From: Bradyrhizobium arachidis | Lineage (GTDB): Bacteria; Pseudomonadota; Alphaproteobacteria; Rhizobiales; Xanthobacteraceae | Assembly (NCBI RefSeq): GCF_024758505.1 | Contig: NZ_CP077970.1 | Location: forward strand, 4,588,001 to 4,652,000 | Reading direction: 5' to 3' | Length of the DNA: 64,000 bases | Shown: one piece after another, positions 23,469-26,309 of the stretch | Layout of the letters: the number at the start of each line of letters is the position of its first letter | Numbering within the stretch: the stretch's first letter is position 1 | Position numbers and translations under genes: made by a program | Notes under the pieces: generated by a model | What the model was told of the DNA's origin: nothing | Seen by the model: the letters and a program-made list of their open reading frames with translations, nothing else | Databases searched by the model: none

Positions 23469-23927
23469 TTAGTGGACAGAGGATTGAGTCTGATCGATGG
23501 AGGCCCGTTGCGGCAACGGAAGGCGCGGATCGGCCGCGCGGAGGGTTTCGATCGCGCGATAGGACAGCCAGATCAGGTTGAAGGCCTGCGCATAGTCCCG
23601 CTCGGCAAGCCGGTTGGCTGCTTGGGTAACCGTTGGTCCGCAATGTTCCAGGCCGGCATACTGCGCAGCGTTGGCCTCGAGATAGGCAGAGAGCGAGCGC
23701 AGGGTTGCTGCGAGCATATCTCCGATCATGTTCTCCGAAGCCTGATGATCGAGCACCGGGTTCGGGATCGGGAAGTTACCAGGCATCGTCCGGAACGACT
23801 GCTCGAAACCTTGCGATTGTAGGCGCATGAGCAGCGGCATCAAATTGCCGAGCAGGCCTGCAAGCTGCTGAATGTCGGACGAGCGCTGCTGCGACCCAGT
23901 TGTGGCAAAAGGATTGGAATCTGACAT
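23469..23927 (-). CDS. Hypothetical protein with one repeat-type helix motif
   Basis: I do not recognise this 152-residue protein. The N-terminus is polar and disordered-looking (SDSNPFATTGSQQRSSD). It is followed by the helix DIQQLAGLLGNLMPLLMRLQSQG, split here as DIQQLAGLLGNLM then PLLMRLQSQG. This resembles the motif repeated in the neighbouring protein at 24027. Residues 65-140 form a predicted helical domain (MIGDMLAATLRSLSAYL, YAQAFNLIWLSYRAIE). There is no signal peptide. A GAAGGAGAG ribosome site lies before ATG 23927. It is 99 bases downstream of the Gln/Gly-rich gene on the same strand, so the two are probably co-expressed. Confidence 0.7.
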   Translation of the reverse strand: MSDSNPFATTGSQQRSSDIQQLAGLLGNLMPLLMRLQSQGFEQSFRTMPGNFPIPNPVLDHQASENMIGDMLAATLRSLSAYLEANAAQYAGLEHCGPTVTQAANRLAERDYAQAFNLIWLSYRAIETLRAADPRLPLPQRASIDQTQSSVH

Positions 23928-24026
23928 GAGGGCTCTCCTTCAGAGGAAGCGTGTAAGACGCTACATGCGCGACCGCCGCCTGTGGCGGCGGTCGCCGATT
24001 GCGCTCGGATCTGCGGCGAATTGCAG

Positions 24027-24755
24027 TCACATCATCCGCTGCTGTCCATAAGACTGAAGGTTACCGATGACCTGAGGAAGGACGCCGATCAGCTGCCGGG
24101 TTATGTCGGCGACATCCTGCTGCGTCAGTTGTCGCTGCTGGCCAAAAGCCATGGGACCGCCGAACGCCGCCTGGAATTGCGGCGCGCCGAACTGCGACCC
24201 CCAAGTCTGCGCAGGAGAAGCCTGCGACCCCCAAGTCTGCGCCGGATGGCCGGGACCGATTTGACCAAGACCTGCGAATTGACCGAAACCCGCGCCGCCG
24301 TGCATGGCGGAATGCTGCATATATGGCTGGCTTTGCAGCATTCCCACGATCTGGGGCACGATGGGCAGGATCTGCCGCACCACCTCGTTCACGTCCTGCG
24401 GGCTTAGCTGCCGCGGCGACTGGCCGTAGGCCGCATAGCCCATTCCTCCGAACGGAGTTTGCGCCTGGGCGAGGATTTGAGGCAGCGCCGGTACGAGCTG
24501 CCGCACGACCTCGCTCACATCCTGCTGCGAAAGCTGGCGTTGTTGTCCGCCCCACTGCTGACCCCACCCCATCGGTTGGGCGCCCCAGCCAGATGCGCCG
24601 AAGGTCGGCTGACCGCCGTACTGCTGCCCGTAGGCTGCTTGGCCCAATCCTCCATAGGGCTGCCCGCCTTGCGAACCGAATGCGTTCCATCCCCCTTGTT
24701 GCGGACCGAACTGGGAATGCCCGAGGTTCTGCTGCAGGGTGTCATAATGAGTCAT
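24027..24755 (-). CDS. Gln/Gly/Tyr/Trp-rich low-complexity protein with a triplicated helical motif
   Basis: The 242-residue protein has a strong AAGGAGG ribosome site. Stretches rich in Gly, Gln, Tyr and Trp (YGQQYGGQPTFGASGWG) alternate with three copies of a roughly 25-residue motif. Copies start QRQLSQQDVSEVVRQLVPAL, PRQLSPQDVNEVVRQILPIV and QRQLTQQDVADITRQLIGVL, each ending in PQI or PQV. A 20-base direct repeat (24191-24210, 24221-24240) doubles PAQTWGSQ. There is no signal peptide, cysteine or enzyme motif. The composition resembles phase-separating or prion-like domains. The function is unknown and no family is recognised. Confidence 0.75.
   Translation of the reverse strand: MTHYDTLQQNLGHSQFGPQQGGWNAFGSQGGQPYGGLGQAAYGQQYGGQPTFGASGWGAQPMGWGQQWGGQQRQLSQQDVSEVVRQLVPALPQILAQAQTPFGGMGYAAYGQSPRQLSPQDVNEVVRQILPIVPQIVGMLQSQPYMQHSAMHGGAGFGQFAGLGQIGPGHPAQTWGSQASPAQTWGSQFGAPQFQAAFGGPMAFGQQRQLTQQDVADITRQLIGVLPQVIGNLQSYGQQRMM
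24191..24240. repeat. Short direct repeat, 20-base unit with 30-base period
   Basis: CTGCGACCCCCAAGTCTGCG occurs at 24191-24210 and again at 24221-24240, inside the Gln/Gly-rich gene. The 30-base period keeps the frame and duplicates ten residues. This shows recent in-frame expansion of the low-complexity region. Confidence 0.85.
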
Positions 24756-25244
24756 CGCTTGCCTCCTTGCGATGGTGGATGCCCTCAGCCCGAATTCCTG
24801 CGAAAAGCCGTCCGCGTGCGCGGTCCTTATGGCAACAGCGGTCCGTCAGCTGCCAATTTCAAATGCTCAAGACGGAGCCACAAGACACCTTCCTCGTTGA
24901 GGCGCGCGAGCTGCGCTCCCCGAGGTGACTAGCGGATGGAAATATTTAGGGCGGCAAAACGAAAGCCGTTTGAGAGATGTGGGAGCGGGTTGTTATTTCT
25001 TGATGGCCACGTCCTGGAGGCCAGTCATTTACGTCCGCTCAGACGCTCTGCGATTGATCGCTGACTTCTCCCCGATTCTTCGGCGTGAGGAATTGGACGC
25101 AAACGCACGCAGGCCCGAATAGTTTCGCGGAAGCGCGGCGATATTTTGGCGGTGATCAAATTTCGAGTCGCGCGGATTCTTGTCAGTACTCTTTGCCTGG
25201 TCAGCGATCTTTCCGATGTGCATCGGCCTACGTTGACGCGAATG
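24756..25244. other. Intergenic region upstream of the Gln/Gly-rich gene
   Basis: These 489 bases separate the start of the Gln/Gly-rich gene from the 3' end of the M48 protease gene. It should hold the promoter of the former. I see no gene with recognisable features and no strong palindrome. Confidence 0.45.
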
Positions 25245-26309
25245 CTAATAGGCGAGGTTGAGCAAAGTGCCGACGCGCTCTGAAGTGGCGGGATGGCTGC
25301 GAAGCAAGCGCATCGGGTCATGCGCGACCGCTGACGCGCGCATCGGCGCAGCGCCAGTATGATGGCGCTCCAATTTCTCGAGTGCGGCGACGAGCGCCCG
25401 CGAGTCGCCGGTCAATTCGAGCGCTGTGGCATCTGCATCAAGCTCGCGAACGCGCGACAGCGCTAGCCCAAGGAGATGACCGAGAGTCGGAGCTGCGCTC
25501 AGCAGCGTCGCCAGCGGCCGGCTTGACGTCATGCCTCCGTGATGATGCCGCGTCCGCAGCAGTGTGAGGCCAGCGAGCGATGTCCAATCGATCGCGCGAC
25601 GCAACGCTGTCGCCCAGCTCATCGTCCATGCGTCATTGTTGCGGATATGCGCAACTTCGTGGGCCAATATCCCGGCAATTTCCTGGCGCGTCATGCCGCG
25701 CAGCAGTCCCTCGGTCAACACGATGGCGCTGCGTTCCGGTCGGCCGAGCGCATAGGCATTCATGTCGCCCGGTGCCGGCAGACAATAGAGCTCGGGTAAT
25801 CGGACCAGGCCGGCGCGGCTGCAGACCTTCGTCAGGATCGCAAACAGGTCCGGAACCTCGACGTGAGACAGCAGGCGCGCACCGAACCAGCGATACATGT
25901 TCTCGCGCGTAATGACCGTTCCATCCGGGCGAGGCGCGCTTTCCATAAGCGCCCGCTGCATTCCCGCGGCTCCGCCGACGATCCAGCCGCACACGGCAAG
26001 CAGCAACATCATTGCAAGGATCGCCAATGCAGACGATTGATGGTTCGCAGTCTGATGGGCCAGCCGCTGATGGCCAAACAAGTCCCGATGTCTTGAGTCC
26101 AGCTCGATACGGCATCGCAGGAAGGTACCCGCTGCTCCGGACGGTGTGTAAATATCCAGGATGACGGTCGTGTTGCACCGTGAAATGCGCAGCATTTGCA
26201 TCGGTGCACTTCGTACCAAAGCGAATGAAATGCCTGGCGTGGGGCCGGCGACATCTCGTCCGGACCGACTACCACGCAAGGCCATCCGGCTTACGCCAGC
26301 GTCAAACAC
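25245..26309 (-). CDS. M48-family membrane zinc metalloprotease (HtpX-like)
   Basis: The frame gives 354 residues from GTG 26309. ATG 26285, 26201 and 26195 are possible starts and none has a good ribosome site. A membrane helix (ILAMMLLLAVCGWIVGG) precedes the catalytic ILAHEVAHIRNND, with the third zinc ligand in SRVRELDADATALELTG. A second hydrophobic stretch lies around LLSAAPTLGHLLGLAL. The C-terminal SHPATSERVGTL is typical of M48B peptidases, which degrade membrane or misfolded envelope proteins. The N-terminal 90 residues before the first helix are longer than usual. Confidence 0.82.
   Translation of the reverse strand: MFDAGVSRMALRGSRSGRDVAGPTPGISFALVRSAPMQMLRISRCNTTVILDIYTPSGAAGTFLRCRIELDSRHRDLFGHQRLAHQTANHQSSALAILAMMLLLAVCGWIVGGAAGMQRALMESAPRPDGTVITRENMYRWFGARLLSHVEVPDLFAILTKVCSRAGLVRLPELYCLPAPGDMNAYALGRPERSAIVLTEGLLRGMTRQEIAGILAHEVAHIRNNDAWTMSWATALRRAIDWTSLAGLTLLRTRHHHGGMTSSRPLATLLSAAPTLGHLLGLALSRVRELDADATALELTGDSRALVAALEKLERHHTGAAPMRASAVAHDPMRLLRSHPATSERVGTLLNLAY

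Follow-up and report, generated by a model that had tools for sequence, protein, structure and literature searches.

Two adjacent genes on the minus strand of the 9.43-Mb chromosome of Bradyrhizobium arachidis raise the question of which system they belong to and what connects them. The window analyzed here, a stretch of 64,000 nucleotides, contains both. In the initial annotation the two proteins were described as unrecognized, were linked through a helix motif with three copies in the larger and one in the smaller protein, and were considered as a possible scaffold or condensate-forming pair. Both open reading frames are present as described. The first, c1 (24027..24755, minus strand), was characterized by ORF list, composition, homologues and structure model and encodes a 242-aa repeat protein rich in Gln, Gly and aromatic residues. 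The second, c5 (23469..23927, minus strand), was characterized by ORF list, homologues and model and encodes a helical protein of 152 aa.

The protein c1 consists of 20% Gln and 17% Gly, contains 24 aromatic residues and has no Cys. Three helix motif copies were located by profile comparison and AlphaFold2 at 24453..24542 (residues 72-101), 24324..24416 (residues 114-144) and 24048..24140 (residues 206-236), all on the minus strand. These copies are genuine repeats: the profiles of copy 1 and copy 2 reach a score of 58.7 against each other, compared to a mean of 9.1 and at most 17.0 when the columns were shuffled 100 times, and the copy-to-copy scores within c1 range from 51.8 to 58.7. By pattern count, 177 of 200 c1 proteins carry three copies and the other 23 carry two. 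All three copies could be located in 47 of 52 aligned proteins, and in these the mean modal frequency is 0.93 for motif columns vs. 0.77 for linker columns. In the same 47 sequences the spacing between copies 1 and 2 is nearly constant (41-44), and both the spacing between copies 2 and 3 (77-109) and the N-terminal stretch (68-117 residues) are variable. The AlphaFold2 model of c1, built from 52 sequences, is of low confidence (mean pLDDT 43) and contains helices only at residues 77-98, 119-129, 132-141 and 212-240, with the remainder unstructured; the chain outside the helix motifs is probably disordered. A 30-base in-frame duplication, which had been taken as a sign of recent expansion, is located in a linker of c1 (24192..24246, minus strand) in the form of two 25-nt copies with 96% identity and 30-nt spacing. 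It is also present in locus L008 from Bradyrhizobium liaoningense SZCCT0420, the closest named relative of the source by c1 match, and is therefore not genome-specific.

The proposed fourth motif copy was assigned to the N-terminal helix of c5 (23814..23906, minus strand, residues 8-38). Its profile score of 9.0 lies at the level of the shuffled controls (mean 8.6, sd 2.1, maximum 15.0) and is exceeded by the reversed profile (17.9), so that a relation of this helix to the c1 motif is not supported. The description of the pair as free of cysteines does not apply to c5, which contains one Cys (0.7% of 152 residues). Its model, based on 71 sequences, has a mean pLDDT of 77 and comprises a compact helical domain at 23532..23759 (minus strand, residues 57-132); between residue 61 and about residue 140 the block means are 89-97.

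Neither protein is covered by a family of Pfam, NCBIfam, PADLOC or PHROG, and two library matches of c1 (14 bits) are far below the cut-offs. At an E-value of 0.001, homologues were found in 841 protein clusters for c1 and in 368 clusters for c5; among the best 120 clusters listed for each, nearly all organism-named matches belong to Bradyrhizobium. The c1 repeat is thus conserved beyond the source genome, both in these 841 clusters and in 23 further loci that were identified by a scan of named genomes for c1. A scaffold or condensate role would fit both composition and conservation.

What connects c1 and c5 is their gene neighborhood. All 23 loci contain an M48 metalloprotease gene together with c1 and c5, and in 22 of them an S8 subtilase gene is present as well, including a partial match in L022 that covers residues 1-353 only. 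The M48 gene adjoins the c1/c5 pair in every locus, and the cassette genes are always co-oriented. The order M48-c1-c5-S8 was observed in 19 loci and the order c1-c5-S8-M48 in three (L026, L028 and L030, all from metagenome-assembled genomes); L008 has the order M48-c1-c5 and no S8. Hence, c1 and c5 almost certainly form part of a conserved cassette with proteases (type A in the following). They do belong together, as had been suspected, which is shown by this cassette and not by a shared helix. Likewise, the statement that enzyme motifs are missing holds for c1 and c5 in the libraries searched, but the cassette contains two proteases beyond the coordinates considered at that time.

In the window, the first cassette gene is the M48 (HtpX-like) metalloprotease gene at 25245..26309 (minus strand, 354 aa), which matches Pfam PF01435 with 92.9 bits. 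The HExxH motif is present, in the form HEVAH or HEVGH in all nine aligned proteins, and one N-terminal hydrophobic stretch was recognized by eye. The best NCBIfam matches of this protein are HtpX models; with 113.2 bits against a cut-off of 369 for PRK03001.1, it was rejected as an HtpX equivalog, and it differs from HtpX further in that it was found in Bradyrhizobium only together with the cassette. About 490 bp of non-coding DNA (24756-25244) separate M48 from c1 and contain conserved blocks in the window and in nine Bradyrhizobium loci. A search of this region gave no Rfam match and no support by covariation; it may represent a large promoter or a leader. Two genomes carry an additional, shorter copy of the cassette M48 (L070, 7145-8185; L071, 2067-2978), near genes that by eye resemble IS110-type transposases.

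Of 265 genomes of the genus, 25 contain c5, and the cassette M48 was found in exactly these 25; the presence of c1 was checked in the 23 loci and the source genome. In a class-wide draw, c5 was detected in one of 385 genomes, which is the source genome itself, and beyond the genus the c1 scan found c5 in a few metagenome-assembled genomes. An S8 gene with at least 65% identity is present in 23 of the 25 genomes and is missing from the source genome and its nearest relative among these genomes (G007). Accordingly, no S8 match was found in the 64-kb window or in L008. The non-synonymous to synonymous ratios between the window and L008 (Nei-Gojobori) are 0.33 for M48, 0.20 for c1 and 0.15 for c5, with binomial probabilities against neutrality below 2e-4 for all three genes under an assumed fraction of non-synonymous sites. 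Judged by these ratios, the trio of M48, c1 and c5 is under purifying selection without S8 in the source lineage. Since both the window and L008 are devoid of S8, the simplest reading would be that it was lost before the two lineages split and that the trio is still used.

The HtpX-like protease could indicate a function in proteostasis, in which a condensate of c1 and c5 captures damaged or aggregating proteins and passes them to M48, S8 and, in some genomes, nearby HtrA-type proteases. A trypsin/PDZ (HtrA-like) protein adjoins the cassette in L028 (5171-7444), and relatives are encoded near it in L029 (14522-15400) and L027 (10048-10926). Furthermore, the c5 domain weakly resembles simple helical bundles including the DnaK lid, but the scores fall into a range that the tool itself regards as uninformative for helical bundles. 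HtrA-like genes occur in only three of the 23 loci, from three distant genomes, and the sporadic distribution of the cassette in the genus is unlike that of core quality-control genes, so that this function appears improbable. In L028 and L029, the trypsin/PDZ proteins are accompanied by a small regulator that resembles LuxR by eye. Also by eye, one of the L028 copies seems to have a degenerate active-site region.

A second conserved feature of c5 is its C-terminus, which in the window consists of a Ser-Val-His tag (23472..23480, minus strand), assigned from the ends of the c5 clusters and from a tail common to the partners of S8 proteases. S-[ILVM]-H ends were found in 116 of the 120 c5 clusters listed and a final His in 119. 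The His is also retained in every one of the 24 c5 proteins from the 23 loci and the window, including three distant ones with ends off the consensus (MTH in L026 and L030, TSH in L028).

The same type of tail, [Ser/Thr]-hydrophobic-His, is found next to related subtilases. A genus search revealed S8 relatives with 34-43% identity in 27 genomes distinct from the 25 above, and in 24 of these 27 loci a tailed ORF was found upstream of the S8 gene. As the script favored tagged ORFs whose end lies, relative to the S8 frame start, between about 0.9 kb upstream and 0.4 kb downstream, the number of 24 means that a tagged ORF is present, not that it is strictly adjacent. In the remaining three loci, the sequence stops at a contig end (L115) or the S8 motif was missed by the script (L119 and L120); L120 nevertheless holds an ORF ending in GTMH. 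Often a small prodomain-like ORF is located between the tagged ORF and S8. Of the tailed upstream ORFs with at least 200 residues, 18 show the repeat pattern of a type B cassette, which is composed of a BTAD regulator, a glycine-zipper repeat protein, a small prodomain-like protein and S8. Five belong to type C, with a glycine-zipper protein of ten units (counted by eye), a small protein and S8. Near-identical repeat units and a glycine-zipper protein ending in GTMH were seen for type B in L067, L068, L072, L074 and L079, and its stand-alone prodomain-like protein in L072, L074 and L079. The 25 genomes with type A and the 27 with type B/C S8 relatives (E-value 1e-60) do not overlap; with about 2.5 shared genomes expected by chance, this is only suggestive.

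Outside of Bradyrhizobium, a phylum-wide draw detected S8 in three of 378 genomes, two of Bradyrhizobium and one (G930) of a second proteobacterial genus, in which 18 of 37 genomes carry S8. The most Q/G-rich ORF just upstream of S8 ends in T-[ILMV]-H in all 18 of them. Among 72,556 plasmid records, two plasmids of Streptomyces match S8, and both encode a Q/G-rich ORF just upstream of S8 that has no tail. Profile comparison relates the glycine-zipper partners of all three proteobacterial types to one another with probabilities of 88-99.9%, part of which may be due to low complexity; c1 and c5 show no profile relation to them (all probabilities below 1%).

The specificity of the tail was assessed with 306 distinct long ORFs from the loci (at least 200 residues, high GC3). 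It is present in 37, all of which are S8 partners by inspection, and the other 269 include three ORFs with a final His and lack the tripeptide altogether. The ORFs within each type are related, and the 37 are therefore not 37 independent events; the independent evidence is that c5 and the glycine-zipper group have the tail in common without detectable homology. It is rather probable that the tail serves the partnership with S8. Docking on S8 is opposed by the tailless partners in Streptomyces and by the ends off the consensus in the three distant c5 proteins. Moreover, c1, c5 and the tail have been kept in the source genome and in G007 although both lack S8, so the tail cannot serve this S8 there.

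Partners of related S8 proteases contain near-identical tandem units, and one of them matches glycine zippers weakly. Together with the S8 gene beside c1 and c5 in nearly all loci, this would also be consistent with precursors, i.e., repeat proteins acting as polyproteins that are cut by the subtilase, together with M48, into helical or glycine-zipper peptides. The released peptides would act on membranes or as signals, with the tail as a recognition element for processing. For c1, however, the helices have a weak acidic character (charge of -1 per helix) and a modest hydrophobic moment, and the linkers vary and reveal no fixed cleavage site, although the Arg preceding each helix is invariant across 52 sequences. 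Moreover, c1 and c5 are still constrained in the lineage without S8. Processing of this kind is thus considered rather unlikely.

A protease that is kept inactive by its low-complexity partner and is freed upon infection or stress could also kill the cell or harm an invader. Such a cell-death or defense module would agree with the sporadic distribution, with the occurrence of more than one cassette form in one genus, with the related S8 genes on Streptomyces plasmids and with the free-standing prodomain-like partner of the other cassette forms. For the latter, one stand-alone small protein was compared to 16 S8 N-terminal regions and scored 29, with a shuffled maximum of 15, which is in line with a free prodomain. 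PADLOC, on the other hand, gives only a generic subtilase model and weak matches to IetS of the IetAS anti-phage system (16-21 bits) for two related S8 proteins, those of type B and of the second genus; for the type A S8, IetAS was discarded, as no IetS match was obtained at an E-value of 0.01. A search of 50,697 phage records with the type B S8 gave no match (E-value 1e-20), no relative of c1 was found in viral contigs, and toxin-like genes were not recognized among the part of the neighbors scanned. A defense function is therefore regarded as quite improbable.

The preferred mechanism, with c1 as an assembling scaffold and the tail as a docking or restraining element, is put forward tentatively and is given somewhat less than an even chance. 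In this mechanism, c1 would be a multivalent scaffold that assembles into a condensate, gel or fiber via its Q/G/aromatic linkers and its helices, and c5 would be an adaptor whose C-terminal tail docks on the subtilase. The assembly would store, restrain or localize the proteases until a signal frees or activates them; its probable place would be close to the membrane that holds M48. In the source lineage, S8 would have been lost with the trio of M48, c1 and c5 remaining under selection. More broadly, and more speculatively, subtilases without evident signal peptides might be coupled by the tag to polymerizing or phase-separating low-complexity or glycine-zipper partners in a widespread, undescribed class of protease assemblies. 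The tag might then have been kept or gained on partners without detectable mutual homology, and the source cassette might be a variant with a separate scaffold (c1) and tag carrier (c5), to which a membrane M48 has been added. No description of such a protease-scaffold system was found in Pfam, NCBIfam, PADLOC, PHROG or a limited literature search. If this is true, prion-like or glycine-zipper proteins form the core of bacterial protease assemblies, a three-residue C-terminal tag marks the partner in a testable tag-and-dock rule, and low-complexity assembly gains a bacterial setting with a defined enzyme client. Irrespective of the mechanism, the cassette places hundreds of unnamed bacterial protein clusters in one system.

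A comparable link between a low-complexity repeat protein and a subtilisin-like protease, in the cassette given by gene neighborhood alone (22 of 23 loci), is known from spores of Clostridioides difficile. There, the levels of the subtilisin-like Csp proteases and pseudoproteases are under the control of the repeat protein GerG, which gels in purified form (PMC5241399). GerG is Asn-rich and spore-specific, whereas c1 is Q/G-rich, and the parts of the GerG report used here mention no M48, c5-like adaptor or tail (PMC5241399). According to the same parts, the repeats are needed for gelling and are reported as dispensable for the role in germination, so the comparison does not show that gelling matters. 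The cassette may work like GerG-Csp, in the sense of an analogy and not of homology or membership.

In the type A S8, the N-terminus is prodomain-like, an Ig/CarboxypepD-like region was matched weakly, and a signal peptide was not evident by eye. For three S8 proteins tested, the best NCBIfam match is the T7SS mycosin (TIGR03921), which was rejected with 105.2, 115.6 and 111.0 bits at a cut-off of 278.75. The two regions named above distinguish the type A S8 from mycosins. No secretion-system (ESX/T7SS) genes were recognized among 18 neighboring ORFs scanned, a minority of the neighbors. Cyanobactin PatA/PatG (TIGR03895) shares the S8 domain and presumably the position of an S8 gene beside repeat-bearing proteins; it was rejected for the type A S8 with 23.7 bits at a cut-off of 421.05. 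The S8 proteins (P0241, L072, L069 and L078) have distinct short motifs at their C-termini, which are LRxxMxxAGL-like in Bradyrhizobium and often GW in the second genus. In part of the latter, the S8 protein ends in PQGW, similar to the PQGW with which the repeats of the partner begin.
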